Shown here piece by piece: positions 8,580 through 63,896 of a stretch of 64,000 nt of DNA. Origin of the DNA: Euborellia annulipes. Its lineage: Eukaryota > Arthropoda > Insecta > Dermaptera > Anisolabididae. The stretch is from positions 1 through 64,000 of the forward strand of contig JAKCPI010012593.1 in the NCBI GenBank assembly GCA_023213315.1, read 5' to 3'. Position 1 is the first letter of the stretch. Each line of letters opens with the position of its first letter. A program made the position numbers and the translations under genes. A model generated the notes under the pieces. The model had not been told where the DNA came from and ran no database searches. It worked only from the letters and a program-made list of their open reading frames with translations.

Positions 8580-9045
8580 GGCTGACCTTTCGGCCTTGGC
8601 CAAGACCATCTTCAGCGTTATAATTAAACAGAGTATATTTTAAATTTTACAAAATTATAACATTATGGCATAAATCAGAGAGTTATTTGTACAAGGAAGA
8701 GGTTTGCAGCCAAAAGAAATGAGCATCTATTATTAAATAAATTATTTATTCCGGACGTTTGGCTGCAAACCTCTTCCTTTTACAAATAATTCTATATACA
8801 GCCACTTAATTATAATAATTATATCCACGAGGTCAAGATGCACCAACAACTGTTCGACAAGTACGGTGACATCTTCAGGAGGTATATCAAAGAACCTGGA
8901 AGACTGAGGATGGCAGAGTAAATCTATGCCGAAATGTCCGAAATAAAGAGTTTATTTAATAATAGAGGCTCTTTTCTTTTGGCTGCAAACCTCTTCCTTT
9001 TACAAATAATTCTATATACAGCCACTTAATTATAATAATTAAATC
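8580..9045. repeat. Diverged hammerhead-bearing repeat cluster
   Basis: Contains a minus-strand core at 8584-8615 and a plus-strand core at 8904-8938 (CTGAGGA, stem II GGCA/TGCC, GAAAT-GTC). A direct repeat of about 60 bp (TGCAAACCTCTTCCTTTTAC...) lies at 8764-8822 and 8985-9042. Confidence 0.55.
8829..8918 (+). pseudogene. Possible captured cytochrome P450 exon fragment inside a repeat
   Basis: Thirty codons read EVKMHQQLFDKYGDIFRRYI, KEPGRLRMAE and then stop. H--LFDKYGDIFR resembles the N-terminal segment of P450 proteins (the ...YGDI... region before the first beta sheet). The upstream 60 bases are directly repeated at 8983-9042, and a hammerhead-like core starts at 8904, so the gene piece seems trapped in a transposon. 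No haem-binding region is present. The match is short and could be chance. Confidence 0.35.
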
Positions 9046-9139
9046 AGAGAGATTATAATTACCTTGAGGACTGTCAATATATATTAAATATCTGTAACTG
9101 AATATTCATGGAATATATATTTGAGTTATTGATTGTATG

Positions 9140-11418
9140 CAGGGCCGCAGTCAGACTTGACGGGCCCCGGGGCTACTTGCTAATACGGGCCCTCCCCCCC
9201 CCCCCATTAAAAAAAACAAATTTTTTTTTAGTATAAAAGGCTATTGTGGCATTCATGCCAACAATTTTTTACACACTTTTTGACACAACTTTTAGAGAAA
9301 GAGTTACAATAATTTATCGAGGCCAGATCCGGACAGGGGATTTCCGGGGGAATCTGGGGGTATGGAAAATTTTTTAAAAATTAGCCACTGAAATCTGCGT
9401 TTTTAGCTATCCTGAGTCGTGAAAAATATCAAACTTGATTTGAGGTTAAAAGGACCGGGCCCCCTGAAGAAAAAAATTTCAAGAAAATGATTATTTTAAT
9501 TGAAATTTTAAGAAAAATTTAAGCTTAAAGGGCTCGGGCCACTGAGGAAAAAAATTTCAAGAAAATGATTTTTTTTAATTGAAATTTTAAGAAAAATTTA
9601 AGCTTAAAGGGCCCGGGCCCCTGAGGAAAAAAAATTTCAAGAAAATGATTATTTTAATAGAAATTTTAAGAAAAATTTAAGCTTAAAGGGCCCGGGCCCC
9701 TGAGGAAAAAAATTTCAAGAAAATGATTTTTTTAATTGAAATTTTAAGAAAAATTTAAGCTTAAAGAGCCCGGGCCCCTGAGGAAAAAAATTTCAAGAAA
9801 ATGATTTTTTTAATTGAAATTTTAAGAAAAATTTAAGCTTAAAGGGCCCGGGCCCCTGAGGAAAAAAATTTCAAGAAAATGATTTTTTTAATTGAAATTT
9901 TAAGAAAAATTTAAGCTTAAAGAGCCCGGGCCCCTGAGGAAAAAAATTTCAAGAAAATGATTTTTTTAATTGAAATTTTAAGAAAAATTTAAGCTTAAAG
10001 AGCCCGGGCCCCTGAGGAAAAAAATTTCAAGAAAATGATTTTTTTAATTGAAATTTTAAGAAAAATTTAAGCTTAAAGAGCCCGGGCCCCTGAGGAAAAA
10101 AATTTCAAGAAAATGATTTTTTTAATTGAAATTTTAAGAAAAATTTAAGCTTAAAGGGCCCGGGCCCCTGAGGAAAAAAATTTCAAGAAAATGATTTTTT
10201 TAATTGAAATTTTAAGAAAAATTTAAGCTTAAAGAGCCCGGGCCCCTGAGGAAAAAAATTTCAAGAAAATGATTATTTTAATAGAAATTTTAAGAAAAAT
10301 TTAAGCTTAAAGAGCCCGGGCCCCTGAGGAAAAAAATTTCAAGAAAATGATTTTTTTAATTGAAATTTTAAGAAAAATTTAAGCTAAAGGGCCCGGGCCC
10401 CTGAGGAAAAAAATTTCAAGAAAATGATTATTTTAATAGAAATTTTAAGAAAAATTTAAGCTTAAAGAGCCCGGGCCCCTGAGGAAAAAAATTTCAAGAA
10501 AATGATTTTTTTAATTGAAATTTTAAGAAAAATTTAAGCTTAAAGGGCCCGGGCCCCTGAGGAAAAAAATTTCAAGAAAATGATTTTTTTAATTGAAATT
10601 TTAAGAAAAATTTAAGCTTAAAGAGCCCGGGCCCCTGAGGAAAAAAATTTCAAGAAAATGATTTTTTTAATTGAAATTTTAAGAAAAATTTAAGCTTAAA
10701 GAGCCCGGGCCCCTGAGGAAAAAAATTTCAAGAAAATGATTTTTTTTAATTGAAATTTTAAGAAAATTTAAGCTTAAAGGGCCCGGGCCCCTGAGGAAAA
10801 AATTTCAAGAAAATGATTTTTTTAATTGAAATTTTAAGAAAAATTTAAGCTTAAAGAGCCCGGGCCCCTGAGGAAAAAAATTTCAAGAAAATGATTTTTT
10901 TAATTGAAATTTTAAGAAAAATTTAAGCTTAAAGGGCCCGGGCCCCTGAGGAAAAAAATTTCAAGAAAATGATTTTTTTAATTGAAATTTTAAGAAAAAT
11001 TTAAGCTTAAAGAGCCCGGGCCCTCTGAGGAAAAAAATTTCAAGAAAGTGATTTTTTTAATTGAAATTTTAAGAAAAATTTAAGCTTAAAGGGCCCGGGC
11101 CCCTGAGGAAAAAAATTTCAAGAAAATGATTTTTTTAATTGAAATTTTAAGAAAAATTTAAGCTTAAAGAGCCCGGGCCCCTGAGGAAAAAAATTTCAAG
11201 AAAATGATTTTTTTAATTGAAATTTTAAGAAAAATTTAAGCTTAAATGGCCCGGGCCCTCTGAGGAAAAAAATTTCAAGAAAGTGATTTTTTTTAATTGA
11301 AATTTTAACCATGAAAATTATTTTTTATTAGAATTTTAAGGTGGGAGCGCAATGGGCCCGGGCCCCCTCGGAGGGCCCGGGCCCCGGGGATATAGCCCCC
11401 CCCCTGTCTGCGGCCCTG
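9140..11418. mobile_element. hAT element swollen by an internal minisatellite
   Basis: Ends CAGGGCCGCAGTCAGAC and CCTGTCTGCGGCCCTG; perfect 8-bp duplication ATTGTATG at 9132-9139 and 11419-11426. Its inside is almost wholly a tandem array (see separate entry). No transposase frame. Confidence 0.85.
9454..11310. repeat. 78-bp minisatellite, about 24 copies
   Basis: Each unit runs GCCCGGGCCCCTGAGG, an A-run, TTTCAAGAAAATGATT, AATTGAAATTTTAAG and AAAAATTTAAGCTTAAA. Neighbouring units differ by one to three bases; an AGAGCCC/AGGGCCC variant alternates irregularly, pointing to recent unequal exchange. Confidence 0.95.
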
Positions 11419-12046
11419 ATTGTATGCTTATATTGACAACCTGCAATCTCTGATTTATGCCATGTTATAATCTTATAATTTTGTAAAATTTCACAAATAA
11501 AATATAGGTTCACAACAGCAAAATATTTCCACATCTTTACCTTAATGAAATTCCTGTACTCTACTTTTAAATCATTAAGAAAAATTACTTTGAAAAAACT
11601 AGATAAATTAATAAAATTGAATTGATTTGTCAATTAGCACGTTTACAAACCCTTAATTACCCAGCTAAACGTCTAGCAACACCCAAGGCCATTCATGTTA
11701 TTCGACCTAATTATGTATTTTTATTTGACTTGAATGATTTGTTTGTCTGTCTGACAGTTTTTTGATCTTCATTTGGAATCTAAACATTTTTTGACTTTCT
11801 ATTTATTTAGCATCGGGGCATCAGATTTTTATTTATTGCTCATTAATTTGTTTGAATTATATACACAATATTAGATCAGAAGAGAGATAGTTCTTTAATT
11901 CATACTGTATATACGATCTTCCGGGATTTTAGTTTATTTATCGAAGTGGCAGATATCTCAATTCAATATTATTTTTAAATCCATAAATTTCTATCCCTTT
12001 CTTCAAGATGAAGCAGAAAGAGTATTTATATGAACCAATCACAAAT

Positions 12047-21182: not shown

Positions 21183-21890
21183 CAGTGGCGTACCGAGGGG
21201 GGGGGCGAGGGGGCGGTCCGCCCCAGGCCCCGAGCCGGCATAGGCCCCCATATATTTATAAAAAAAAATTTAATGAAAATTTCCCTTTTAGAGGCTCCGG
21301 GGCCCTCAGGGCTCAAGTAAAAATGGAAAAATTTAGATAAAAAAAACAAAATTTAATGAAAATTTCTCTTTGAGAGGCCCCGGGGCCCTCAGTGCTCGAG
21401 TAAAAACAAAATTTAATACCATAAAATTATTCAAAATTTAATGAAAATTTCCCTTTGAGAGGCCCCGGGGCCCTCAGGGCTCGAGTAAAAACAAAATTTA
21501 ATACCATAAAATTATTCAAAATTTAATGAAAATTTCTCTTTGAGAGGCCCCGGGGCCCTTAGGGCTCAAGTAAAAACAAAATTTAATGAAAATTTCCGTT
21601 TGAGAGGCCCCGGGGCCCTCAAGGCTCAAGTAAAAACAAAATTTAATGAAAATTTCTCTTTGAGAGGCCCCGGGGCCCTCAGGGCTCAAGTAAAAACAAA
21701 ATTTAATCAAAATTTCCCTTTGAGAGGCCCCGGGGCCCTTGGGGTTCAGGGATATACGGTATTTTAAAAATATTTTTGTGTATGGAGGAGAGGGATATTT
21801 AAAGATGAGCACCCCAAAAAAAAAAAATTCAATATAAGGCCCCCTCTTCTAGTGCCGCCCCAGGCCCCCAACTGCCTCGGTACGCCTCTG
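21183..21890. mobile_element. hAT MITE with internal tandem repeats, CAGTGGCGTACCGAGG family
   Basis: Ends CAGTGGCGTACCGAGG and CCTCGGTACGCCTCTG; perfect 8-bp duplication TGTTTAAT at 21175-21182 and 21891-21898. The interior 21285-21745 is a tandem array with GAGGCCCCGGGGCCCTCAGG repeated about seven times, in which units of about 60 bp alternate with two longer ones. Confidence 0.85.
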
Positions 21891-23270: not shown

Positions 23271-23336
23271 CATTTTTCATAGACCAATATATTAATATGA
23301 TATAAAATTATATATATATATATATATACTGTATTT

Positions 23337-23799
23337 GGAAGAGGTACCAGGGAGCCTTCCTGGTGAACAGCAGCCAGGGTGAATAAAAATTTTTATACTT
23401 TGTTGCCGACGTTTCGGGCGCTAGTCGCACCCATCCTCAGGGCAAGCAAATTGTCAAAATATAGTACCAGTTATGCGGCCCCGGAAATCAATTGCTGTTT
23501 AAATGCGGTGTCAGGTACAACGTCTTGTGAATTTTTATAAAAAAACATTTTAAGAATTTGTACATACCTTCGATTCAAAGAAATAATAATACATGTATCA
23601 ACATGAAATGAATTCCCGGTGCCGCATAACTGGTACTATATTTTGACAATTTGCTTGCCCTGAGGATGGGTGCGACTAGCGCCCGAAACGTCGGCAACAA
23701 AGTATAAAATTTTTTATTCACCCTGGCTGCTGTTCACCAGGAAGGCTCCCTGGTCCCTCTTCCAAATTGAATATCTACAGTCATTCAACCAACAAATTC
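23337..23799. mobile_element. Hammerhead-bearing foldback element, 14-bp target duplication
   Basis: Arms of about 155 bp (23337-23490 and 23612-23765) are nearly perfect inverted copies around a loop of about 120 bp. Each arm carries the same core: minus strand 23408-23440, plus strand 23660-23692 (CTGAGGA, stem II GGGTGC/GCGCCC with one G-T pair, GAAAC-GTC). Flanked by TATATACTGTATTT at 23323-23336 and 23800-23813. Confidence 0.75.
23656..23698 (+). ncRNA. Hammerhead-ribozyme-like motif
   Basis: Stem I TTGCC/GGCAA with further pairs after a 2x2 internal loop; core CTGAGGA; one spacer base T; stem II GGGTGC-GACTA-GCGCCC; GAAAC; GTC cleavage triplet. Stem III would be only A-U and C-G with no loop, so activity would need a dimer through ACGT. 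The identical motif lies on the opposite arm. Confidence 0.5.
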
Positions 23800-23819
23800 T
23801 ATATACTGTATTTATAATT

Positions 23820-27560: not shown

Positions 27561-27743
27561 TAAATAAGAATGCTTGGAACCCAAATACACCGTACATATA
27601 CCTGGTGGGCCATTAGTGCGTGAGCTGATTAACGGATATTTTTAAAGTTTTCAATTTTATTATAAGGATTATAAAAATTTCTCAGCTATATTGTAATATT
27701 GGATGGGAGAAAGTAACGATTTGCAAAACATCAGTTGATTGTA

Positions 27744-27779
27744 CTGAAGATGATTCCATATCACTGGAGTCGAAATATT
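27744..27779 (+). ncRNA. Solo hammerhead-ribozyme-like motif
   Basis: CTGAAGA, one spacer base, stem II GATTCCA-TATCAC-TGGAGTC (7 bp with one G-T pair), then GAAAT-ATTT. The cleavage triplet is ATT, so stem III and the site are altered; probably inactive. Confidence 0.4.
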
Positions 27780-27985
27780 TACAATTAAACGGACAATACG
27801 CAAAAGTATTTATTTTTTGGCCCACGGTTTTTATAATAAAATTGATTCTCCTTAGGGCCATCTACAAACAATTTTTAAAGTTTGTTGATCGTGCCTAATG
27901 TGGGGCCTTTAGGGCTACAAATTAAAAATAATTTTATTCCAATTGCAATTTTTATACAGGTAGATCCATATCAAAGTTATGTTTA

Positions 27986-28335
27986 TAGTGGAGAATTGGA
28001 GATATCAGCCAAATTGGGATTGTCCAGGTTAATAAAACTTCCAGGATAAGACGTTTCGGCCTGAATTTATTTCGCCATCTTCATTTATCGGAAATTATAC
28101 ACACAGTGCAAGTGCACATGTGATCAAACCAAGACTTGTCAATAATAAAATATATTTGATTCATACCAAATTCTATGGTTCCTGTGCCCAAGTTCAGAGA
28201 ATCCTGAAGATGGCCAAATAAATTCAAGCCGAAACGTCTGATCCTGGGAGTTTTATTAACCTGGACAATCCCAATTTGGCTGATATCTCCAATTCTCCAC
28301 TATAATCACATCACTCACAGCCACAACCTCAAAAG
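27986..28335. mobile_element. Hammerhead-bearing foldback element, 14-bp target duplication
   Basis: Arms 27986-28090 and 28200-28305 pair (TTGGAGATATCAGCCAAATT against its complement). Cores at 28050-28083 (minus) and 28204-28238 (plus, CTGAAGA...GCCGAAACGTC). CAAAGTTATGTTTA flanks at 27972-27985 and 28336-28349. Confidence 0.75.
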
Positions 28336-28353
28336 CAAAGTTATGTTTATTTA

Positions 28354-30799: not shown

Positions 30800-32510
30800 T
30801 ATGATAAAGTACCACATTAGTTTGGCCTCTATTGATTTGGTTCAATTGAAAAATTATTCATTATCATAAAAAAATGACCCGTAAATATCAAAATTCAAAA
30901 CTATAGTTAATAGGGCCTTATTTGCGTGAGGCTTCAAATAAAGTACCACATTAGTTTGGTCTATTTTGGTAAAACCAAACTCACAATTTGCGTCATCAAA
31001 TATGACTCTTAAGTATTACATTTCACACCTCTAGCCCATCGGGAAGTCTTTTGAAATTACATTAATTCACGAAGGGTTTCAAATAAAGTACCACATTAGT
31101 TTGGTCCATTTTGGTAAAACCAAACTCACAATTTGCGTCATCAAAAATGACTCTTAAGTATTACATTTCACACCTCTAGCCCATCGGGAAGTCTTTTGAA
31201 ATTACATTAATTCGCGAAGGGTTTCAAATAAAGTACCACATTAGTTTGGTCTATTTTGATCAAAACCACCATATAGTGGCGTCATCAAAAATGACTCTTA
31301 AGTATTACATTTCATACCTCTAGCCCATCGGGAAGTCTTTTGAAATTACATTAATTCGCGAAGGGTTTCAAATAAAGTACCACATTAATTTGGTCTATTT
31401 TGATCAAAACCACCATATAGTGGCGTCATCAAAAATGACTCTTAAGTATTACATTTCACATCTCTAGCCCATCGGGAAGTCTTTTGAAATTACATTAATT
31501 CGCGAAGGGTTTCAAATAAAGTACCACATTAGTTTGGTCTATTTTGATCAAAACCACCATATAGTGGCGTCATCAAAAATGACTCTTAAGTATTACATTT
31601 CACACCTCTAGCCCATCGGGAAGTCTTTTGAAATTACATTAATTCGCGAAGGATTTCAAATAAAGTACCACATTAATTTGGTCTATTTTGATCAAAACCA
31701 CCATATAGTGGCGTCATCAAAAATGACTCTTAAGTATTACATTTCACACCTCTAGCCCATCGGGAAGTCTTTTGAAATTACATTAATTCGCGAAGGGTTT
31801 CAAATAAAGTACCACATTAGTTTGGTCCATTTTGGTAAAACCAAACTCACAATTTGCGTCATCAAAAATGACTCTTAAATATCAAATTTCACACCTCTAG
31901 CTCATCGGGAAGTCTTTTGGGAAATTACATTAATTCGCGAAGGGTTTCAAATAAAGTACCACATTAGTTTGGTCTATTTTGATCAAAACCAACCATATAG
32001 TGGCGTCATCAAAAATGACTCTTAAGTATTACATTTCACACCTCTAGCCCATCGGGAAGTCTTTTTGAAATTACATTAATTCGCGAAGGGTTTCAAATAA
32101 AGTACCACATTAGTTTGGTCTATTTTGATCAAAACCACCATATAGTGGCGTCATCAAAAAATGACTCTTAAGTATTACATTTTTCACACCTCTAGCCCAT
32201 CGGGAAGTCTTTTGAAATTACATTAATTCGCGAAGGGTTTCAAATAAAGTACCACATTAGTTTTTTGGTCTATTTTGATCAAAACCTCCATATAGTGGCG
32301 TCATCAAAAAAAATGACTCTTTTAAGTATTACATTTCACACCTCCTAGCCCATCGGGAAGTCTTTTGAAATTACATTAATTCACGAAGGGTTTCAAATAA
32401 AGTACCACATTAGTTTGGTCCATTTTGGTAAAACCAAACTCACAATTTGCGTCATCAAAAATGACTCTTAAATATCAAATTTCACACCTCTAGCTCATCG
32501 GGAAGTGTCC
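30800..32510. repeat. Tandem array, about 145-bp unit, roughly 11 copies
   Basis: AAATAAAGTACCACATTAGT recurs at 30936, 31081, 31226, 31370, 31514, 31658, 31802, 31949, 32095, 32242 and 32395 (spacing 144-153). Two subtypes differ in the middle: CCAAACTCACAATTTG and CACCATATAGTGG. The end units share one subtype, the central ones the other. Confidence 0.95.
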
Positions 32511-32599
32511 TTAACAAAGCCATAAAGTTGGTGACCTTGAAAGAGTAAGTTAAATAAAAGCATTTAATTAAAATTTTTAAAAAGAACCATAGTTTATTT

Positions 32600-33659: not shown

Positions 33660-34025
33660 CGATTATTTGGAAACAATCAATGTTAAAAAAACACCGATTA
33701 TTTCTCTATAATTAGTTATGAAAAAATAATAGATTATTTCCGATTAATCGGTTCTCCGATTATTCCGGTTATTTTCGATTAATCGGTTCTCCGATTATTC
33801 CGATTATTTTCGATTAATCGGGAAACCGATTATTCCGATTATTTTCGATTAATCGGGAAACCGATTATTCCGATTATTTTCGATTAATCGGGAAACCGAT
33901 TATTCCGATTATTTTCGATTAATCGGTTCTCCCGATTAATCGATTATTTTTTTTATAATAATCGATTATTTTTTAAGAAAATAATCGGTATAAAAACGAT
34001 TAATCGATTATTTTTCCCAGCCCTA
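33660..34025. repeat. Truncated TAGGGCTG hAT element with CGATTA repeats
   Basis: Many copies of CGATTATTTTCGATTAATCGG in alternate orientation, ending TTTTTCCCAGCCCTA. The left terminus is not found. Compare the complete copy at 37171. Confidence 0.6.
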
Positions 34026-37700: not shown

Positions 37701-38742
37701 ACCTAACTTAATATTGTTTAACTTTACAACAAAATGCTGGTTAACGAATAAAGATAGCTTGAAGTTACGACGATTATTTCTTTAATAGACCTACCTCCTC
37801 AAAAAAAGACAGTCCCATCAAAGTGGGGGCGAGGATGAAAAAGTAATTCAAGGGGAGAAAACAGCGTGAAAATGAAAAAATAATAATTCCTAAAATAATT
37901 GTATCAAAAATATACAGAAGTAACAAGAAATTCAAGGAGTCATAAGTAATTAAAACTGATAATCAAGTTAGAATATTTCTTGTCTGAAAAAATAGTAAAT
38001 TATAGTTTTTTTTTATTGAGGTATTTTTCGGCATCGGAGGCCATTTGGACCCTATTTCTATAAAAGACTGTAAATTTGTTAATTTTTTTTTTTTAATTAA
38101 CAAGGTTCGTTAAGCTTCCTCCTAATAATTTAATAAAAGAATTTGACCCATTTATTCATCAATAAATTTCATTTTCTCTTCTTTAATAAAAATATAGAAA
38201 TATATTTTATTTTTGTTGTTTAAACATTTTTGATTTCGCATATAAAATGAATAATTTCACACTCTCTCTAGCCTAATTTGAGTTATGTTTTATTATTTAT
38301 TTTAATAAGAACGAGAAAAAAAAGTGTAAATAATAAATATGTTAAAAAAAAAAAAATGAAATGAAGAAATAAATAAATTTTGACACTTCCTAACATTTCC
38401 TTTCCTCCATCAGAAAGAATTTTTTAAATAATTTATTATAGCCTACTCCCAAACATGATTAAATAATTTTTTTCGTCACGGGAATTATGATCATCAATAT
38501 TTCTAACAAAAGTAATCTTAATCGAATGATATTTCCAATTATTTTTAAAATAATTTTTTTATTAGTTCCCGACACGATTTAATATAATTTGAATTTCCAA
38601 ATTACATATACCTTATTTAAGCTATTATTTTTGAGAAAGCAGAAAAAAATAATGCAGTCAGGAAAAATAAAATTTTTGTTTATAAATTTATATTGTCCGA
38701 CGTTTCCAAGAGGCAACCTTGTGTTCATAATAAACAAACCTC

Positions 38743-38775
38743 CCGAGGAAGGGTGCGACTTGCGCCCAAAACGTC
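38743..38775 (+). ncRNA. Degenerate hammerhead-like motif
   Basis: CCGAGGA, stem II GGGTGC-GACTT-GCGCCC, then AAAAC-GTC. Same subfamily as 23660; the GAAA is mutated. Confidence 0.35.
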
Positions 38776-38902
38776 AGTCAAAAAACTAACTTATCAGGTG
38801 GAAATTCTAACTATATTAAATCGTATCTGTTATTTAAAATAAATAGGGTTGGGAACTAAATGGTCATGGATGCCGAAAAAAAACCCTTAAACAAAAGAAA
38901 AA

Positions 38903-41639: not shown

Positions 41640-41870
41640 TATGGCTGGTGGAATTTGTAACAGGAATGAAAGTTAGAAAAAACGCAACCAGAATTTTTTC
41701 TTTAAAAATATATTTTAACAGCTTACGTTTCGGCCTTGGTCAAAGCCATTCTTGGATGACCACTAACAGGGGTCCGAGGATGGCTTTGAAAAAAGCCGAA
41801 ACGTCAGCTGTTAAAATATATTTTTGAAGAAAAAAATTCTGTCTTCGTTTTTTCTAACTTTCATTCCTGA
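41640..41870. mobile_element. Hammerhead-bearing foldback element
   Basis: Arms pair over AGGAATGAAAGTTAGAAAAA and its complement. Plus-strand core 41774-41805: CCGAGGA, stem II GGCTTT-GAA-AAAGCC, GAAAC-GTC. The minus-strand core at 41724-41753 is degraded. Confidence 0.65.
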
Positions 41871-45119: not shown

Positions 45120-46520
45120 CAGGAATTTAAAACAATTAGGCCTAAATCTCCTTCATGGAAATTTAGATAAATATTGACTGATTTTAACAGGATTTGATCT
45201 TCGTAGAATTTAGGATTTTTTCACAATAAATTTAATGAATTTCAAGTGAAATATCAAAAAATGTGGATTAAGGAAATAACTTAAAAAAAACGAATAATTT
45301 CTCGATACTCAAATTTTATACTTAAGCTAATTACTGAAGTCGCGTAGGTCTTGAGGAATTTCAACGAAATAGGGTAAAGAGTACTAGTACTTTTAAACTA
45401 AATTTTAAAGTTTTAATTTATTTATTTTATTCTAAAATTTCTAAAACTATAATTTTTTATATAATTACATATCCAATAAATTTACAAATGTTACTTAGTA
45501 AATTTAATTTTACTTATCATTTTTATGGTTGACATTTAAATAATAAAAAAAATATTTAAAACTAAAATAGGGTAAAGAGTACTCGAACTCTGCTAATGAT
45601 TTTTTTTTCTGAAAATCGGCTTTAATGAAGACACGCACTTAAAAACATGAAACATATCACCTAGAGTTTTTGATTAATTTCAATTAAGTTTAACTAATTA
45701 TAATGTTTCAACCAAAGGGTGCCATATTAAAATTAGTCAAAAATTTACATCATCGATAGTCATTTTCTCTTTCCTGGGGGGGGGGGGGGTTGGCCCCTAA
45801 ATCTCCCTCCCCTGATTGCGCCACTGAAGTAAACCAAGTCTGATTCATTTAAAGTCCAAGAGATTGTTACGCTTAAAAAGCCTTTTATTTTAATGCGGCA
45901 GCAGTATAATAATTTTATTTGTAAATCTCTTGCAACATTCTGATCCTAAATACAGGATCTAAATATTATAATTTCAAAATGAAATGTCATTTAAAATTTT
46001 TTTTATTATTTAAATGTCAACCATAAAAATGATAAGTAAAATTGAATTTACTAAGTAACAGTTGTAAATTTATTGGATATGTAATTATATAAAGAATTAT
46101 AGTTTTAGAAATTTTTTTAGAATAAAATTTAAAACTTGTTCTTTAATAAAACAGTGAGTGTTAAATATGGAAAAGTCAAGGGGGACGTACACTCACTTGC
46201 AGGGTCAAAGAAAATAAAAACTGGTGTGATTGAGCACTACTATCTCTTATCTTAGATGTTTGAAAGTTGTGGGATGTGCTGTCAAATAAGATTTTTTTGT
46301 CTCGCGATTTATTTAATTAAGCCCAAGAGGTAGAAAGGTTATTAGAAGAAAATATTTAAATTTTGTTAGCAAGAACCATCCCTATAACACGCGAAAACAA
46401 GATATGAGATTGACTAGATTATATATAAAATTTTACTCGATAAATATCGTAACATTTATAATCTGATTGTAATGATAGAAAATGTATATTCTATTCGACG
46501 TCATTCTTTGTATCCAATTA
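45120..46520. other. AT-rich DNA with transposon scraps
   Basis: 45350-45480 and 45960-46140 are partly inverted copies (CTAAAACTATAATTTTT, TACATATCCAATAAATTTAC) forming a large diverged inverted repeat; a MITE right end GATTGCGCCACTG lies at 45814-45826; a degenerate CACACCAG hairpin at 46220-46300. Confidence 0.45.
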
Positions 46521-46528
46521 TTATTCCC

Positions 46529-46560
46529 CTGATGATGGTCTTAAATGGTAGCGAAACGTC
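46529..46560 (+). ncRNA. Solo hammerhead-like motif with canonical CTGATGA
   Basis: CTGATGA ... GCGAAAC-GTC. The core is exact but stem II is poorly paired, so it is likely a relic. Confidence 0.35.
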
Positions 46561-46691
46561 GGCCCTGGCTGCCTTGCTCTTTCATTTAAAACTTTCTTCA
46601 ATAACAGATATAAGTAATATAAAGTAAAAATTAATAATCATTTCAAGTTACAAACCTATCAAAAATCTAGATTAAATCTATCTTGAACTAT

Positions 46692-46877: not shown

Positions 46878-46879
46878 CC

Positions 46880-48744: not shown

Positions 48745-49590
48745 TTTTTTTTTACAACGCTTTTTGAATAGTATTATTGGCTTAGGAAGACGAACAACCA
48801 CTGACTAAACGTCTTATAGAATTCGAAAAGTTTTTATCGAAATCTAATTGCGATAAATAATATGAAAAATATTTATTAAGGCGACAAGTTTTTCGTCTGT
48901 AATAATATCAAGATTTATTTATGTATCCTTGAAAGACATCACAAGACATAACGAGACATTGTCATTTAAATTAATAGCCAAATGGACATTCTACCTGAAG
49001 GGCAATTAAACAAAAAAATAGAATTAAAAGTGCTTTTATGTTTTTCTTATACTAAGGTCAAATAAAATCCCCACACCCATATGATGATGGGTTCGATTCC
49101 CTCCGATGAGATTTGAACCTCTCACATTCTTTCAGGTCGGATATCAAAAGAATATTTTGGAACTAGTCACCAGTCAGGGACAACAAATCGGCCATTGAAC
49201 TAAAAAAGAATTCGTGGATATTGAGTAAACCTAATGCATTCATCATGTTCGCTCTCTCGTGACCTCGACGAGGACGTCTATTTTTATTTCTCGAAATAAG
49301 AGGGATGTAAAGAGAAAGAGGCGATGGAGCGAGGAAGGAGAAACGGAGATGTTTTGCGGTCTCATCGGGTTTGATTTGGTCCTCAACAGCATCTTAACCG
49401 TTTGTTATTGGGTGAATTACTCAACCGGCTCTTCGGACAATTGCTCTCAATTATTTTTCCAATTTTTATTTAATTTTTTTTTCAGATTTAAGATTAAAAG
49501 AATATTTTTTTCTAATATCGACAAGGCCAAACAAGGTTGGATCTCAGAACGGCGAAGATAATTAACTGTGCGCTAATCATACAATAAGCT
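48745..49590. other. Mostly unique DNA with a GC-richer block
   Basis: 49255-49450 is GC-richer. GGGTTCGATTCC at 49088 is a perfect box B without box A nearby. No splice-bounded exon is convincing. Confidence 0.35.
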
Positions 49591-49872
49591 TTACCAGTCT
49601 CTTAATGGTGATGTAGACAGGAAAAAAACAAGACGATTGCAGCCAAATATTCTTTTATTTAAATTCTCGCCCTCACAGCTGACGTTTCAGACTGAGGTCT
49701 AGATCATCTTCAGAGCCGGCTGGCTCAAAAAGTGTGGATATTGCTGAAGATGGTCTAGTCCTCGGGCAAAAGCGTCAGCCGTGAGGGCGAGAATTTAAAT
49801 AAAAGAATATTTGGCTGCAATCGTCTTGTTTTTTTCCTGACTCCATCACCAATAAGCCTCAAACAGTAAAGA
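49590..49872. mobile_element. Hammerhead-bearing foldback element
   Basis: Arms pair over GGTGATG, GATTGCAGCCAAATATTC, TTTTATTTAAATTCTCGCCC and complements. Minus-strand core 49681-49713 (CTGAAGA, stem AGAC/GTCT, GAAAC-GTC); plus core 49744-49776 is degraded (GCAAAAGC-GTC). Confidence 0.7.
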
Positions 49873-49948
49873 GAATTTTTCATGAGAATATAGATTGATA
49901 AAAACGTTGCTACACTGCCATGTCAACTAAACTGACGATTTAACTTCA

Positions 49949-49997
49949 ATTTCGTCCTGATGAAGAGTGCGATCGGCACTCGAAACGTCGACAAAAT
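49949..49997 (+). ncRNA. Best hammerhead-ribozyme-like motif in the window
   Basis: Stem I ATTTCGTC/GACAAAAT (one C-A mismatch); core CTGATGA at 49957-49963; one spacer A; stem II GAGTGC-GATCG-GCACTC, six perfect pairs; GAAAC 49982-49986; GTC 49987-49989, so predicted cleavage after C49989. Stem III is just A-U and C-G without a loop; ACGT could pair between two molecules. The spacer base after CTGATGA departs from the textbook fold. Confidence 0.55.
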
Positions 49998-50105
49998 AGA
50001 CTTATTTTTTCCGTCTTGGCTGTCCATATACAACATCCTCATATTATAATATCACAGAGTTTCACCAGTCTCTTAAGTATAAATTTTATAAAATTAATAT
50101 ATTGT

Positions 50106-50439: not shown

Positions 50440-50690
50440 TGGTGTTTCAGATAGACAAAGATGAAATAGTTTTTCTTATTTATTCTTATCGGCGTTTCGA
50501 GAAGCTCATCGTTTTCTTTCACAGGACGGATTAGTTGTCGGGTATACAAATGACATGTATAAATTTATGATAGTAATAAATTTATACATGCAATCCGTTC
50601 CGAGGAAGAGAATGATGAGCAACTCGAAGCGTCGATAAGAAATAAGAAATAAAAATTTATGAGGATGTGGTATATAGGCAGCCAAAGGAG
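50440..50690. mobile_element. Degenerate hammerhead foldback
   Basis: Arms with TTATTTATTCTTATCGGCGT and ACTCGAAGCGTCGATAAGAA; cores degenerate (CCGAGGAAGAG...CTCGAAGC-GTC at 50598-50632). Confidence 0.55.
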
Positions 50691-53518: not shown

Positions 53519-54285
53519 ATTAAAAATATAAATATTGGAGTGGAGTCAATCATAGAAAGAATAAAAAAAAAATTTTCTGACGACGTTTCGAGCGCCAATC
53601 ATGCGCTTTCTCGGGACAGTCTAATGTCAATTCTTACGGATTATATTAATTTTAGTATCATTTGGCATCAACAATCTGAACTTAAACTGTTGATGTCAAA
53701 TGATATTAAAATTAATACAATACGTGAGAATTGACATTAGACTGTCCCGAGAAAGAGAGTGATTGACGTATGAGAAATGGTTGCCATGGTAACAAAATAT
53801 AAATATTTAACCATGTTTATTAATTTTACATCGCCACCGGGTTTGGCGTAGTAGGTAGGGTGTCTACCTCCTATACCAAACGTCGCGGGTTCGGACCCCA
53901 GGCAGTCCGATGATTTTATTTAACCCATTTGGATACCAGATGGCTTAAATAGAAATGCCTGAACCCCCAATAGATATTTTCAATACAACGGTTATCGTCA
54001 AAAGTCGTATATGGCCTGAGTTGCCGAGAAGAATGTGAATGTGTGTATGAGTGTGAGTGTGAATGAGAAAAAAAGTGTGAATGTTTAAAAAAAAAAAAAA
54101 ATTTACATCTTGAATCAAATGTACTGTACTGCCGCAAACTAAATATATGTCGACACAAAAAAAAGGGACAAGCACAGAACAGAACTTTGGATTACCGAAA
54201 GTAAGAGAAAGTTGTGTGCTGTGCAACCAGTCACACAAGATTTTTTATTCTTTCCTTGGCTCCACTCCATTATTTATATTTAATA
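53519..54285. mobile_element. Hammerhead foldback split by family A DNA and a SINE
   Basis: Left arm AATATTGGAGTGGAGTCAAT near 53530; right arm end TTGGCTCCACTCCATTATTT near 54255. Minus-strand core 53582-53614 (stem II AGCGC/GCGCT perfect, GAAAC-GTC, but CCGAGAA). Family A fragments occupy 53765-53832 and 54102-54240. Confidence 0.65.
53833..54101 (+). mobile_element. SINE-1 with target duplication, inside family A DNA
   Basis: TTTACATC at both ends (53825-53832 and 54102-54109). Head GGGTTTGGCGTAGTAGGTAG, box B CGCGGGTTCGGACCC, A tail of about 14. Confidence 0.8.
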
Positions 54286-57480: not shown

Positions 57481-57495
57481 TAAATATGTTCTGAC

Positions 57496-57853: not shown

Positions 57854-57889
57854 CTGAAACAATAATAATGAAAATATAAATAAAAAGAT

Positions 57890-58183
57890 TGAATAATAGA
57901 ACGTGGCTGTAGCTGATATGTTTAATGGAAAGAGGATGCAGCCAAATAATAGAGCCTCTATTCAGTAACGAAAACTCTTTATTAGGGACGTTTCGGTTGG
58001 GATCTACCCTGCCATCTTCAGCCTTCAAAGAGCATATTTATATTTTTCATATATAAATAGAGTTGTCATGATTTAACAATACAAGAGATGGCAGGGTAGA
58101 TCCCAGCCGAAACGTCCCTAATAAAGAGTTTTCGTTACTGAATAGAGGCTCTATTATTTGGCTGCATCCTCTTTCCATTAAAC
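57890..58183. mobile_element. Hammerhead-bearing foldback element, 14-bp target duplication
   Basis: Flanked by ATAAATAAAAAGAT at 57876-57889 and 58184-58197, 37 bp upstream of the exon 3 acceptor on the transcribed strand. Arms pair over GGAAAGAGGATGCAGCC and AATAGAGCCTCTATTCAG. Cores 57987-58021 (minus: CTGAAGA...ACCGAAACGTC) and 58085-58114 (plus). Confidence 0.8.
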
Positions 58184-58303
58184 ATAAATAAAAAGATCTT
58201 AGAATAAAGCCAATTTTTAACAAAACTTTTTTGTATTTTTATGTGAATTTCTATTTTTCTTCAATTTATTATTATACAAGATATGAAAGGTGAATCCAAT
58301 TTT

Positions 58304-58514
58304 TTGGAGTTTAGGCTTTCACAGTTGGAAAGAATTAGATTTTCGGTTTAACTGCGGTTTATTTGTAAAAATTACAACGTTTCGGCCACTCATACTATGG
58401 CCTTCTTCAGGTACAATTCAGCTGAATTGAAGAAGGCCACAGGCTGAGTGGCCGAAACGTTGTAATTTTTACAAATAAACCACAGTTAAACCGAAAATCT
58501 AATTCTTTTAATAA
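58304..58514. mobile_element. Hammerhead-bearing foldback element, 13-bp target duplication
   Basis: TGAATCCAATTTT at 58291-58303 and 58515-58527. Arms pair over AGAATTAGATTTTCGGTTTA and complement. Cores 58376-58410 (minus, stem II GGCCA/TGGCC, GAAAC-GTT) and 58427-58461 (plus, stem II GGCCAC/GTGGCC). Confidence 0.8.
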
Positions 58515-58624
58515 TGAATCCAATTTTGTTAACATTTTGTATTTCGCTTGCTGAATACAGGTCAATAAAGGTAAATGAGAAATGGCTAATAAAAAAAATT
58601 CGCGTGGGCTGAATGAGAATTAAG

Positions 58625-59225: not shown

Positions 59226-59812
59226 AAATTATATATATGAGAAGCGGAAAGTGAAAAGGGATCTCTTGTCGGAGAGGTAAAATTATCGATTTAAAGATGC
59301 TCAGGGGCCCACATCTTGTGGTAACGTGGATGGCGTCACGAGTTACCTGAGCTTGGACTGGCAGTCCTGCTCTTTACATATCTGTCCCTTCCTTTTATAT
59401 TTTCAACAAGCGTCAGACGGTGCGACGGGCCGACATGTGGTATTTCTACTGGTCTCAAAAAACCCATTCGCCGACCCCGCACTGGGGGAATAAGGCTAAG
59501 AAAGAAGAAGAATATTCCCTATACAGGTTTAATCGGTAATTTTAGCGATGAAAATCCGATATACCGTATATTACAAAATAATCGATTTAGTAACTTCAAA
59601 TATAGAAAATAAATAGTTTTTCATTATATTTAAATGAGTTTTCCTGTTTTTTATATCTATAACTTTGAAAGGCTGTAACCTTTTTTAGTTTTTGAGATAT
59701 CATAGTGATTTTGGTCTTAAAATGTTCAAGAAATTATCCCCTACAATAAAATATTAATAACTCCATCTGTGATATTTCCGACAAGAAGTTCCTTTTCACT
59801 TTCCGCATCACA
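59226..59812. repeat. Inverted-repeat element with an RTE tail in the loop
   Basis: AAGCGGAAAGTGAAAAGG and CTCTTGTCGG on the left face CCGACAAGAAG and CCTTTTCACTTTCCGC on the right. Confidence 0.6.
59285..59512 (+). mobile_element. RTE-type LINE 3' tail fragment
   Basis: GC-rich stretch ending CGCCGACCCCGCACTGGG, GGAATAAGGCTAAG and an AAGAAGAAG-type tail, the usual 3' signature of RTE elements in arthropods. It sits in the loop of an inverted repeat (59226-59812). No intact frame remains. Confidence 0.5.
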
Positions 59813-60009
59813 TATATAGTGATACCCTTTCAAGGGACAAATTTGTTTTGTTGATATCTTAAAATATCTAAAATATCTTTAGATTGCAATATAACAATGA
59901 CCCTTAGAAGTGGATATTGGCTGAGATGGGAGACTTAATTATTTATCTTCATTATTTATTACAGCATTATTAAGCATATCTAAAGACAAGGAAAATAAGA
60001 GGTAAACTC

Positions 60010-60110
60010 AGTTTTGACCTCAGTACTAGCCTCGTATACCAACGGTCGCGGGTTCGGACCTCAGGCAGTCCGATGATTTTATTTAAGCAATTTGGATACC
60101 AAATGGTTTA
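60010..60110 (+). mobile_element. SINE-1 fragment
   Basis: CTCGTATACCAACGGTCGCG, box B GGGTTCGGACCTCAGG, GTCCGATGATTTTATTTAAG; tail absent. Confidence 0.6.
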
Positions 60111-60584
60111 GAGATATTAAAAACAAAAAAATGACACGGAACCGACAAAAAAAATAATACGGAACCGAAACATCAGCTGTGTGAATTGACCAAATAAAGA
60201 AATAACCTTAGCTGCATTTCTCATTTTTACCCTCTTATTAATATAACATCTCAGCTATAAATTGTTTATGCAAAAAAATGAAAAATCATTTAATCCATGC
60301 ACATCATGGAGCAGTGAGAAAAAATTTGGAGGAGTGAGAAAAAATAGCTAAGTTCTTTACAGTCGGTCTGAAAGTTTTGGTCTGGGAGATAGAGCGCTAA
60401 ACCTTCAAACAAAAGAAAAGAATTCTATCTCCCATCTCCGCCAATATTAATACCAAAAGTTTAATTCGATGAATAAATAGTAAATTGTTTTTTTATATAT
60501 TACACATTTCAACAAAACATATTTTGGCCACTTGAATGAGTAAAACTTATTAAATATATTAAATAATAATTGAAAGGACACAAT

Positions 60585-60780
60585 CAGGTCTTTTCTCTAA
60601 GCAAAAACGTTAACTTTTAACAGCTGTAAACAACGTTAATTCATTTTTACACCTCTGACTCAAATTGTTAATCTGTAAGCAAAAAAATAGCATTTTTTAA
60701 CGCTGATGTTATTACTTTACTTTTCGACACCCATTTAATGATGTCAAATTTTAACGTTTGTTTTTAGAGACTAGACCTGA
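60585..60780. repeat. CAGGTCT inverted-repeat element, short copy
   Basis: Left CAGGTCTTTTCTCTAAGC, right TTTTTAGAGACTAGACCTG; internal sequence is the reverse orientation of 51725-52100. It ends about 80 bp from the exon 2 donor. Confidence 0.65.
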
Positions 60781-60863
60781 ATGGGTTTTATATATTAAAT
60801 TGAAATTATTAATACTAGCTTTAAATTTTTGTTTTTGTTACTTCTTAGGCGTAAGTTACTCAC

Positions 60864-61358
60864 CGTGAAGTCTGATGTGGCTCCACGGTGTAGGTGTTAA
60901 CAGGGAAAAGTCTTAGTTTGTTATGCTGATTGTTTCTCTGGACTCGAGCTTGCCAGCCGTTGTTGTTGGGTGTAGCTTGACCACCTCCACCCAAATAGAG
61001 TACACTTTCAGAATGATGTCTTTGAGGTGTCTGCACACGAGCACTATGTGCAATTAATTGACGAGAGGCTGCAGCAGCAGCCGCAGCTGCTGTTTGGTGT
61101 GGAGGAGCACAAGAACTGCTGGCTACACTAACGTCACTCAAAGAACCATGCCATTTGAGTGTTTCGCTGCTAGAAGCTGAGCCACTACTTGTTGTGACGA
61201 CACTTTCACGACCGGCTCCGGATGAAGATTCTTCCACACCAATACCCGATGAGGCTGCAGAGGAAGTTGCCCAGTGATGGTGATGCGAAGACGGGGTTTG
61301 AGGTCCTGCTGCAGCTCCGCCTTGGCCTGGACCGGTAACTTCGCTATCTCGGCGAAGA
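60864..61358 (-). CDS. Internal exon 2 of the Shroom-like scaffold gene (tentative family)
   Basis: 495-bp exon bounded by TTACAG and GTGAGT; enters in phase 1 remainder (completing CG to Arg) and leaves in phase 2 (CG again). It encodes about 165 residues: RLRRDSEVTG, a Gly/Ala-rich part, four His in a row, a Ser-rich part, SETLKWHGSLSDVSV, an eight-Ala run, then SRQLIAHSARVQTPQRHHSE-SVLYLGG, and an Asn/Gln-rich tail ending VNTYTVEPHQTS. The block from RQLIAHS to SVLYLGG and the WHGSLSDVS block read like conserved islands inside low-complexity sequence. Shroom proteins are long, poorly conserved actin-binding regulators of apical constriction with such islands; that family link is inference. 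Homopolymer Ala and His runs suggest repeat-driven length variation. Confidence 0.85.
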
Positions 61359-61429
61359 CTGTAACCAAAATATTATACATATATATTAGAAATATTATTT
61401 TGTAATAAGGATAATGGAAAACATAAACG

Positions 61430-61591
61430 CCCTCGGTTCTTGGCGAATGGTTAGCGTGCTGGCCATTTGTACCAAGGATCGCGGGTTCATATCCCGTCTT
61501 ATGGGACAATTTATTTCAATTGGATTGGGTACCAGACGGGGTCTAAATGGCCTTCGATGCCGATAAAGATCTTAATGAATAAAAAAAAAAA
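61430..61591 (+). mobile_element. SINE-2 full copy
   Basis: Head TTGGCGAATGGTTAGCGTGC (box A region), box B CGCGGGTTCATATCCC, body TTTCAATTGGATTGGGTACC and AAATGGCCTTCGATGCCGAT, A tail. Confidence 0.75.
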
Positions 61592-61908
61592 AATAACAAA
61601 CTTTTGAGGAGATTAATGAATTCTTCTTCCTCTAAAAGATGAAATTGTCAATATTGAGATATTTTTAATAAAAGCTCTAATTTTATTTGAACAAATTGAA
61701 TATAGTTAACAAAATTATTAATTATTATTAATATTTAATGTATCAAAATATGTATCTAGAGGCTTCAAAAATATCATTATACCGGTAAACAATATATTTC
61801 ACAAATATAAATAGGAAAGAAATGCTGAATGAATGCAATAAAGGCCCAAAGCTAAAAATCTTAATTTTGACTTTTTGTAAAAATTGGCTTCTAAAACTAT
61901 ATTTTAAT

Positions 61909-61913
<5 letters not shown>

Positions 61914-61944
<31 letters not shown>

Positions 61945-62035
61945 CATTTAAGGTCTTTTTAGGCAGCGAAGGCCATTTAGACTTCCGTCTCTATTTATTT
62001 CACCTGGATTGGTAGCCAATTCAAATGAAATAAAT
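61914..62035 (-). mobile_element. SINE-2 3' part with a long A tail
   Basis: A tail read as about 30 T on the plus strand (61914-61944), then GGCAGCGAAGGCCATTTAGA and ATTTCACCTGGATTGGTAGC. Head absent. Confidence 0.7.
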
Positions 62036-62615
62036 AAAACAATAATTGGTTACAAAACATGTAGCTTTCGGTGCAATAATTTAAAATTCTATTTATTATT
62101 TATTATTTTCTACTCTGTAACACAAAATTGAGTTTAATCTATATACCCTAGAGTCTTGCTAATCCGGACTTTGATATTCCGGCATATCGACAATCGACTA
62201 GGCGTGTTGAAAAGTCACTTCTTCGGGAGATTAAAGCAAAAAAAAAAGATAATTTAAGAAAACAAAGTGTCATTACAGATTTTTTTCTTTATTACATTTT
62301 GGATTATATTAAATATTTTGGGTAATCCAGCATTTTCAGAATCCGGCAAAGTGGCGGTTCCGTTTTGGCAGGATTACCAAGACTCTACTGTACTATAGAA
62401 CAAGGCCAAGAAAATAAAGTTATTTGAAAACTACAGACTGCTTAATTCTCATATGAAACTCTCGAATTATTTTTTGAATAGTCTTTCTCAATATTTCGCA
62501 TTTTTGAGTTGAGTAACTTTTGTATTTCAGCAAGTTAAATAATTATAAAAGATACTTTTTGCAAATATAAATAGAGTAGCTTTACTATTTATATATAAGT
62601 TTTTATGGAAATTAC

Positions 62616-62872
62616 CGGTCGAGGAAAGGGGTAGTGGTGGTAGAATCCGAGCTGCTCACGTAGCTGTGGTAGCCCTCGGAGTGGGCGTAAGAGGCCTGGT
62701 GCACGTGTTGATTGCTTCCTCGTAAAGAATCCTCGTACACTCGGGCATATTCTTCGAGATCGGCTTGTGTCAGGGATGCTGCGCCTCCAGATGACGACGA
62801 CGTTTGTGGTTGGGCTGTTTTCAATGATTGTTGAACTTGAGGACCCGGCTCTTGCGCGACTCGCATATAATC
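62616..62872 (-). CDS. Internal exon 1 of the Shroom-like scaffold gene (tentative family)
   Basis: 257-bp exon, open throughout, preceded by TTTGACAG (acceptor) and followed by GTAATT (donor). It enters in phase 0 and leaves in phase 2 after CG, which the next exon completes to Arg. It encodes 85 residues: DYMRVAQEPG, a Gln/Ser-rich stretch, an acidic segment LTQADLEEYARVYEDSLRG, then SEGYHSYVSSSDSTTTTPFL-DR. The Ser/Thr run followed by a basic FLDRLRRDSE block formed across the splice junction looks like a conserved linear motif in a cytoskeletal scaffold. GC content is clearly higher than in the flanking introns. No enzyme domain is visible. The Shroom assignment comes mainly from exon 3 downstream; any large Ser-rich adaptor is the alternative. 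Confidence 0.75.
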
Positions 62873-62879
62873 CTGTCAA

Positions 62880-63600
62880 AGAACCAAATGTCACGTCAGA
62901 GATGTCATGCTCAGGAAAAAAATAAAATTCTTTCCTTATGAAAAGGCCAAAAGATCAAACACCTTTTATAATTTAAAATATATGTATAATGTATATTTAT
63001 AAGATTTTTCAGGGGATCAACATATTTTATTTCCCTGGGACGAGAATAGAATTCAATCAAAAATTCCTGTGCAAAAGAAAAGGCTTGGTTATACTGATAT
63101 GAACAGTTTAGTTTTTGATATAATAAGATTTCATTTTAATCAGGGTTTTCCAGAATGCTTATGATGCAAGAGGAAAAAAGAAAGTTGTGAATCAGATGGA
63201 TTAATTTATTCATTGATACCGATTCAGAATAAAGTAAAAAGTAGGAAAAAAAAATGTTGATATTATTTTTATAAGATATTTTAAAGCTTCCCCCATCTAA
63301 TAAAAGAAGGGAAAAAGATATAGAATAATTAAACAAATAATAATGAACAGCTTTCATTCATGTTCAACAACAATAATATATATTATGATTGTATGAGGTA
63401 TACAAAATTTTTTCGGTTCCTTTGTCAGATGGGTAAAACTTAGACGTCAAAATTGTGGATGCAGAATTTATTTAAACAAATTTTAACTCCTTTTGTTTAA
63501 TCGCGATTTTAATCATTTAAATTTTGATGTCCCTGGGGCAACTGGGCAACTACAAAATTCATTTCTTATAATATAGGTCTATGAAATTTTGGAATTTAAA
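62880..63600. other. Intron sequence upstream of exon 1
   Basis: AT-rich; no repeat or exon recognised. Confidence 0.5.
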
Positions 63601-63690
63601 CGGGGCGGCATTTTGGCCGGCCGGGAGGGGGGAGGGGCGCGAAAATTATAATTTTGGCCCCGGGCGCAAGTTTTCGTAGGTGCGGCCCTG
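63600..63690. mobile_element. Right end of a CAGGGCCG hAT MITE
   Basis: GGCCGGCCGGGAGGGG, then CGTAGGTGCGGCCCTG; the left end is not identified. Confidence 0.45.
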
Positions 63691-63861
63691 GGGACAAGCA
63701 TCCTCATGCGTTTTCTCATCTGATTATTTCATTAATTTTTAAAGAAAATACAAAATTAAAAAAATATTTTGTAGTTCAAACGCAAAAGAGAATTCCAATA
63801 AAGATTTCGATAATATTTTATTAAAAAACAATGAAATAATCACATCACGTCTGCCTCTCAT

Positions 63862-63896
63862 CTGAAGAAAGCCACTGAATGAGTGGCCGAAATGTT
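63862..63896 (+). ncRNA. Solo hammerhead-like motif
   Basis: CTGAAGA, spacer AA, stem II GCCAC-TGAATGA-GTGGC, CGAAAT-GTT. Related to the copy at 58427. Confidence 0.4.

Follow-up and report, generated by a model that had tools for sequence, protein, structure and literature searches.

Minimal hammerhead ribozyme motifs in palindromic copies of Penelope-like retrotransposons of Euborellia annulipes

A stretch of 64,000 nucleotides from the dermapteran insect Euborellia annulipes (GenBank assembly GCA_023213315.1, contig JAKCPI010012593.1, positions 1 to 64,000 of the forward strand; hereafter the window) contains a scattered family of hammerhead-like motifs that a preliminary description had tentatively connected with Penelope-like elements (PLEs) or small retrozymes. 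We find it very probable, judging by sequence, that these sites are minimal type I hammerheads located in the pseudo-long terminal repeats (pLTRs) of endonuclease-bearing Penelope-like retrotransposons. This reading rests on the covariation of both stems, the association of the motif with units encoding a reverse transcriptase (RT) and a GIY-YIG endonuclease, the divergent pairing of copies, target-site duplications (TSDs), tails on single arms, and exact intron loss.

The motif, consisting of CTGANGA, one base (T or A), stem II, GAAAC and GTC or GTT, was confirmed on both strands at the coordinates previously reported for it, of which 23408, 28050, 49681, 57987 and 58376 are the left ends of minus-strand copies. 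The core mostly ends in GAAAC-GTC, with the variants GAAAT-GTC, GAAAC-ATC and GAAAT-ATT. A mismatch-tolerant scan of the window returned 10 sites at a score of at least 4, compared with 0-3 (mean 0.6) in ten Markov sequences, and 14 sites at a score of at least 2, compared with 1-5. A covariance model R1, built from 31 copies including 18 from the window and therefore partly circular for scoring the window, found 19 sites at E ≤ 3.2e-4 and 26 at E ≤ 1; with this model, which includes window copies, 15 of the 16 example sites of the preliminary description reached E ≤ 3.2e-4. To lessen the circularity, a second model, R2, was trained on 20 non-window copies, part of which R1 had brought to light; its window matches numbered 14 at E ≤ 0.0032, rising to 17 at E ≤ 0.03 and 23 at E ≤ 1. 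Site 53582 was weak (E = 0.015 with R1 and 7.5e-5 with R2) and has a degenerate core, stem II of site 46529 is poor, and site 63862 (the copy starting at 63850) and the partner copies at 58070 and 49732 were missing from the R2 matches at E ≤ 1. The Rfam hammerhead families gave no match in the window, either at the gathering score or at E ≤ 10, and none at E ≤ 10 in positions 5700-5900 of L022, a locus described below. Thus, of the two kinds of search that had been proposed at the outset, models built from the copies find the sites and the Rfam models do not, as is expected for a hammerhead lacking stem III. A genome search with RF00008 also returned no matches, yet it recovered 0 of 14 controls and thereby does not show absence. 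A hammerhead-core lookalike was noted in a 78-bp satellite at 9393-11409 (about 23 copies), the unit of which has CTGAGGA and lacks the rest of the motif.

The covariation of stem II, on which the preliminary description had based its case, is supported, and stem I, which lies on either side of the cleavage site and is not mentioned there, covaries as well. In the 31 copies, 97 double-change cells were counted in stems I and II, compared with 45.6 after shuffling (0/500), with 80% of the cells paired in stem II and 59% in stem I. When the pairing partner was shifted by 1-3 columns, the covariation score of these copies fell from 0.58 to 0.13-0.20. The excess persisted in a set of 23 copies, about one per family (62 double-change cells versus 26.8 shuffled, 0/500), and in the 20 copies from outside the window (59 versus 19.4, 0/500). 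RNAalifold alone predicted stem II and did not predict stem I. The best conserved positions include the GA of CTGANGA, GAAA, and the U before the cleavage base, while both stems vary. The order CUGANGA...GAAA...UH with stems I and II is that of a minimal type I core, and the UH site lies no more than 4 bases after GAAA in the aligned copies, as in hammerheads whose stem III is absent or reduced to two pairs (A-C/G-U). The assignment of the window sites to the minimal, stem-III-less type I hammerheads of the PLE class is supported by these features, and self-cleavage is predicted.

Elements able to carry such motifs were found elsewhere in the genome, where at least 118 matches to GIY-YIG were obtained among the best 150 scored of 710 candidates. 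The motif (E ≤ 0.05) was present in 16 of 20 regions selected from these matches. In two of them, L022 and L021, it stands both before and after open reading frames (ORFs) of 822 and 852 amino acids, respectively, that match RVT_1 and GIY-YIG, so that the pLTRs occur in either orientation: L021 is a direct hammerhead-ORF-hammerhead unit, and L022 is an inverted, head-to-head pair with 3.3-kb arms of 99.5% identity. In a scan of six frames, both Pfam models matched L022, L021 and L029, as expected for a single ORF with RT and GIY-YIG domains; L018 and L026 matched RVT_1 only (L026 below the cut-off), and L024 matched only DUF4371. The L022 protein has 220 relatives; most of the 120 listed are unnamed, and the named ones among the matches listed come from ladybirds, an ant, butterflies, a mealybug, a mantis shrimp and a brachiopod. 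Together with the inverted pLTRs, one-arm tails and TSDs of the window copies, these units bear out the Penelope-like assignment. In the L020 family, at least 28 matches are 100% identical over the 103-bp stretch from hammerhead to tail, so that the family has probably moved recently. One of the selected regions, L028 (G000:C21118), has a 609-aa GIY-YIG frame, presumably UvrC-like, among other closely packed frames and looks bacterial (a symbiont or contaminant).

The window itself holds short, non-autonomous PLE copies only, and a search with five PLE proteins revealed no PLE ORF in it (best tblastn match E = 0.22). The motif pairs at 23.4, 28.1, 41.7, 49.7, 58.0 and 58.4 kb sit on the two arms of inverted repeats and face outward, a pairing inside palindromes that had escaped the preliminary description. 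The insertions and the predicted hammerheads are as follows.

23323-23813: E23 palindromic PLE insertion; minus arm 23333-23488, plus arm 23607-23767
23323-23336 and 23800-23813: flank word TATATACTGTATTT shared by both ends of E23; its edge overlaps the arms by a few bases
about 23768-23800: tail of E23, right arm only
23396-23452, minus: minimal hammerhead, E23 left arm; stem I TTGCC/GGCAA; spliced form
23648-23704, plus: minimal hammerhead, E23 right arm; spliced form
27972-28350: E28 palindromic PLE insertion; arms about 27980-28083 and 28205-28308; right arm with an AC-rich tail (by eye)
27972-27986 and 28336-28350: TSD of E28, CAAAGTTATGTTTAT, read by eye
28038-28096, minus: minimal hammerhead, E28 left arm; stem I GATAA/TTATC; first core base A, not C
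28192-28250, plus: minimal hammerhead, E28 right arm; without a stem I partner
49582-49857: E49 palindromic PLE insertion; arms 49601-49713 and 49744-49856, parting exactly at CTGA
at 49582 and 49850: 8-bp word CAATAAGC shared by both ends of E49
49669-49725, minus: minimal hammerhead, E49 left arm
49732-49788, plus: decayed minimal hammerhead, E49 right arm
57877-58197: E57 palindromic PLE insertion; arms 57917-58017 and 58086-58186; tail confined to the left arm
57877-57889 and 58185-58197: TSD of E57, TAAATAAAAAGAT
57975-58033, minus: minimal hammerhead, E57 left arm; spliced form
58070-58128, plus: hammerhead truncated near its 5' edge, E57 right arm
58292-58527: E58 palindromic PLE insertion; arms 58329-58409 and 58428-58508; tail on the left arm, by eye
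58292-58303 and 58516-58527: TSD of E58, GAATCCAATTTT, read by eye
58364-58422, minus: minimal hammerhead, E58 left arm
58415-58473, plus: minimal hammerhead, E58 right arm; core TTGAAGA
41661-41869: E41 palindromic PLE relic; hammerhead 41762-41817 (plus), decayed partner 41712-41767 (minus)
53593-53768: palindromic relic; weak motif 53570-53626 (minus)
8572-8627, minus: minimal hammerhead; stem I decayed
8892-8950, plus: minimal hammerhead, distantly related to E57; its tail region 8932-9013 is matched in inverted orientation by a coreless stretch at 8679-8760
27732-27791, plus: solo minimal hammerhead; stem I TTGTA/TACAA
35183-35238, plus: solo minimal hammerhead; long stem I CGAACCC-TAGC/GCTA-GGGTTCG
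38731-38787, plus: solo minimal hammerhead; core decayed, E23-like
46517-46572, plus: solo minimal hammerhead; stem II poor
49945-50001, plus: solo minimal hammerhead; stem I GTC/GAC
50588-50645, plus: weak extra copy, one end of a palindrome at 50479-50646
63850-63908, plus: solo minimal hammerhead; stem I decayed

The E23, E57, E28 and L020 families were followed through the genome; the searches gave 1299-1766 first-look candidates per family, of which the best 40 were scored in each. Among these best-scoring candidates, E23 neighbours on the same contig within 2 kb were divergent in 22 cases, tandem in 4 and convergent in none, and all 14 such E57 neighbours were divergent. Counted by eye, E28 and the L020 family had 11 and 7 divergent pairs within 2 kb, respectively, and no convergent ones. 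The 35 locus entries of E23 and E57 yielded 30 testable pairs (in L040, L042 and L063 the partner was too short or broken), and 28 distinct ones after the duplicates L045 and L047 had been dropped, L047 being taken as the same insertion as L038. The two outer ends shared a flank word of 10-15 bp, mostly 11-14 bp, in 21 of the 28 distinct pairs; in comparisons between different loci, a shared flank word of at least 10 bp was found in 22 of 756. A tail of about 30 nt was present on exactly one arm in all 21 pairs having such a word, as it was in 22 of 22 before L047 was dropped. Hence three quarters of the distinct pairs (21/28) combine a TSD with a tail at one end, the arrangement known for PLEs, in which the tail measures 30-40 bp. 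One tail in 21 of 21 pairs would be very unlikely if the start sites were chosen independently, so the two starts appear to be coupled. The 5' ends of the E23 and E57 arms are spread over at least -60 to +89 relative to the core, and the idea that 5' truncations pile up exactly at CTGA, as seen in 4-5 window pairs, was abandoned because it did not hold for the E23 and E57 pairs. In the four window pairs 28083/28204, 49713/49744, 58410/58427 and 41757/41774, the arms diverge at CTGA or no more than two bases from it, and one arm is left without its stem I partner. The palindrome junction of L051 is identical to that of L038/L047 and its TSD is different, as if a finished palindrome had moved as one unit.

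Comparison of the copies revealed an intron in the pLTR. In E23, the distance between exon 1 and exon 2 was exactly 0 in 11 distinct insertions in which both exon ends were found, and exactly 96 in L041, L048 and L060; L057 was unspliced judging by its sequence. In E57, the distance was exactly 0 in 8 distinct insertions, 76 in L065, and 2 in the second arm of L063. The removed introns start with GTGAGT in E23 and GTAAGT in E57, and end with ATAG and CTAG, respectively. Since exon 2 begins 3 nt (E23) or 9 nt (E57) before the hammerhead core, stem I spans the exon junction in both families. Copies with and without the intron thus establish it in E23 and E57, while in other families introns are predicted from an AT-rich stretch followed by YAG 2-8 nt before the core; all copies found of the L020, L022, L021 and L027 families were unspliced. 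The proposition that short copies are always spliced was ruled out by L057, L065 and L073, a short palindrome of the L020 family that keeps the intron sequence in both arms. We also dropped the agreement of splice state between arms as proof of one shared RNA, because none of the three all-unspliced pairs (L041, L048 and L060) has a TSD and the palindrome of L041 is an extended one; fold-back copying, a larger inverted duplication or an assembly effect may account for these three E23 palindromes. The exact absence of the intron from most E23 and E57 copies tested points to a spliced sense template.

From these results, a route of integration may be proposed. The PLE protein would bind the sense RNA, spliced or unspliced, and its endonuclease would cut the two strands in a staggered way, leaving 3' ends some 12-13 nt apart. 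Reverse transcription on the sense RNA would then be primed by both target strands, on one from the distal site, which yields the tail, and on the other from about 30 nt upstream. Each cDNA would run to a variable 5' end, usually through an uncleaved hammerhead, and the two cDNA ends would be joined head-to-head. The exact intron loss, the TSD and the single tail, all of them features of the insertion products, favour such two-strand priming. According to the available text on the Anolis PLE, its protein cuts and extends both strands, and two adjacent RT starts bound the tail (PMC11167929).

Several observations weigh against this picture. The pair and TSD tests are confined to a single genome and to best-scoring candidates, with detail for two families; no PLE DNA from other organisms was obtained among the viral and genome contigs searched. 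No partner was found in L065 and L069 (2 of the 35 E23 and E57 entries), and 7 of the 28 distinct pairs had no shared flank word of at least 10 bp. Among these seven, a single tail is still seen in L039, L043 and L064 (at a contig edge), while the tail is missing from both arms of L041 and L054 and, by the cut-off used, present on both arms of L048 and L060; moreover, the inverted repeat of L041 extends into the flanks. The motif was not found at E ≤ 0.05 in L017, L026, L028 and L032, i.e. 4 of the 20 loci selected by GIY-YIG. Finally, start-site choice in vitro is described in the available Anolis text as equal between strands (PMC11167929), so a strict one-tail rule needs an extra coupling step. 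Such coupling between the two start sites is what our one-tail pairs predict, and it is not reported in the part of the Anolis work available to us.

The structure might alternatively be kept because the PLE protein binds it or because it helps the RNA to fold near the RT start, and not for self-cleavage in vivo, which we regard as a real possibility, with the balance tilted against it. Many cDNAs pass through the hammerhead, so those templates were uncleaved, and in the accessible part of the Anolis study hammerhead mutants insert unchanged and no reads start or end at the cleavage site (PMC11167929). However, the letters of the catalytic core are among the best conserved while the stems change, and the Anolis hammerhead, by the same partial source, cleaves once its protein is added (PMC11167929). 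A different origin of the palindromes, by self-priming on an antisense template with the tail difference arising secondarily, was proposed for Adineta Penelope elements, whose inverted pLTRs have a TSD and a tail on one of them (PMC3846280, available in part). Head-to-head palindromes are common here as well, some junctions overlap by 2-8 nt, and the repeats of L041 run into its flanks as those of a fold-back copy would. Yet most E23 and E57 copies tested lack the intron exactly, which requires a spliced sense RNA, and a cDNA copied onto itself should repeat the tail and the flank, in conflict with the single tail of all 21 pairs sharing a flank word. We therefore consider self-priming improbable, and the paired insertions speak for a sense RNA template on which both target strands were extended.

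Small tandem retrozymes spreading as circular RNA, the other assignment contemplated in the preliminary description, share with our copies the hammerhead, the short non-autonomous unit and the high copy number (1299-1766 first-look candidates). This assignment is unsupported and highly improbable: the families searched consist mostly of inverted pairs with a TSD and a tail, tandem copies account for no more than 4 of the 26 neighbours in E23 and for none of the 14 in E57, and metazoan retrozymes, as far as the available source texts go, are tandem repeats with canonical type I hammerheads (PMC7229834, PMC7761336), so that the defining tandem units of 150-300 bp with such a hammerhead are not what we see. 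Inverted-repeat DNA transposons (miniature inverted-repeat transposable elements) holding the motif by chance would account for short palindromes with TSDs, and are hardly credible given the 5' truncation varying at the centre between constant outer ends, the one-sided tail, the intron loss, and the same motif on RT/GIY-YIG elements.

Within the reading as PLE hammerheads, the position of the intron suggests that the ribozyme may be assembled by splicing. The intron, established or predicted, ends 2-9 nt before the core, and a long stem I would be formed from exons 1 and 2 after splicing; we advance this model tentatively, as one somewhat more apt to fail than to hold. In E23 and E57, the hammerhead lies at the start of exon 2, and exon 1 would complete stem I only after splicing. 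The pre-mRNA would carry only a short stem I, and splicing would switch the hammerhead on, so that unspliced RNA would stay intact as a full-length retrotransposition template and spliced RNA would be marked for processing. Stem I energies were computed with the closing hammerhead pair forced and the top-scoring 5' splice site used, the splice-site weights coming from general knowledge and not from this species. Joining exon 1 made stem I more stable in 9 of 11 families (equal in L018, worse in L040). The chosen site ranked, among upstream positions, 1/161 in L020, 3/154 in E57, 5/160 in E23, 9/157 in L041, 9/160 in L024, 11/161 in L022, 19/157 in L016, 34/155 in L021, 47/158 in L027, 71/161 in L040 and 157/157 in L018. 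An unconstrained duplex calculation gave an improvement in 8 of 12 entries, the others being E23 (L048), L021, L018 and L040.

In a ten-family set, from which L040 was omitted and in which the splice sites of L021 and L018 were picked knowing the pairing, all ten families improved, the mean going from -9.05 unspliced to -14.45 spliced; with downstream strands permuted, the spliced mean was -5.99 (0/2000). The eight families without a pairing-informed choice gave -14.79 spliced versus -6.21 permuted (0/2000). The unspliced stem I also beat the permuted one (3/2000), which means that the pre-mRNA has some stem, and for a set of 28 copies, partly related to one another, in which no clear 3' splice site was seen, stem I as it stands in the genome had -10.65 versus -6.13 (0/2000). 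The best example is L020, in which exon 1 ends with CAACAGCAG and the strand after the cleavage site is AGCTAGCTGTTG. A splicing-gated class, if defined by a stem I that gains stability on splicing and by an exon 1 able to pair with the strand beyond the cleavage site, would thus fit most of the families as modelled. If true, the model could explain poor cleavage in vitro by genomic PLE hammerheads, whose activity was reportedly low in the hands of Cervera in 2014; the Anolis hammerhead depends on its protein for cleavage (PMC11167929). On the other hand, L073, L057 and L065 were copied from unspliced RNA, and the presence of both spliced and unspliced insertions indicates that both RNA forms serve as template. 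The Anolis hammerhead mutants with unchanged insertion and the missing reads at the cleavage site, as given in the available text, also speak against a gate (PMC11167929).

Other features of the window include a tandem repeat of about 144-153 bp at 30846-32578 with a related single copy at 7433-7666, a 35-bp tandem array at 33697-33961 with the unit core GATTATTTTCGATTAATCGG, and a 60/85-bp repeat array at 21251-21816 rich in GGCCCCGGGGCCC. A host gene fragment on the minus strand at 60860-61372 resembles insect proteins, one relative being named Shroom by a source.

Minimal PLE hammerheads were reportedly described by Cervera and de la Pena in 2014 and by Lunse et al. in 2017, and spliceosomal introns in pLTRs are said to go back to Arkhipova in 2003. 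The accessible texts establish that PLE pLTRs carry hammerheads without stem III and that these abound in animals (PMC7761336, PMC6155905, PMC7229834), and they also document the pLTR introns (PMC11722881). The hammerheads described here agree with them in type I order, lack of stem III, pLTR location and thousands of dispersed animal copies (PMC7761336, PMC6155905), and differ in the crossing of a splice junction by stem I, shown for two families and predicted for others. Metazoan retrozymes, per the available portion of the source, are likewise short non-autonomous repeats with type I hammerheads; unlike our copies, they are tandem and their hammerheads are canonical, with tertiary contacts (PMC7229834). 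The Penelope elements of Adineta vaga resemble ours in their inverted, head-to-head pLTRs, TSDs of 8-10 bp and a 31-bp tail on one pLTR, whereas the copies studied here are mostly pLTR-only, numerous and often spliced, with flank words mostly of 11-14 bp; the word hammerhead does not occur in the available text of that paper (PMC3846280). The Anolis Poseidon element (PAc) has, in the text available, a tail bounded by two RT starts, cutting and extension of both strands, and a pLTR hammerhead near the ORF start, all matching what is seen or proposed here, and in vitro it shows no strand preference, in contrast to our 21 TSD-bearing pairs with one end at each start site (PMC11167929). No description of a hammerhead stem across a splice junction was found in the titles and abstract openings covered, which did not extend to Cervera 2014, Lunse 2017, Schostak 2008 and Craig 2021. 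The kind of element is therefore known and the splice-junction feature is apparently new. The role of PLE hammerheads is termed unknown in the accessible part of a review (PMC7761336), and a stem across the splice junction, if true, would give them a concrete one, in which the processing state of the RNA controls the state of the ribozyme.

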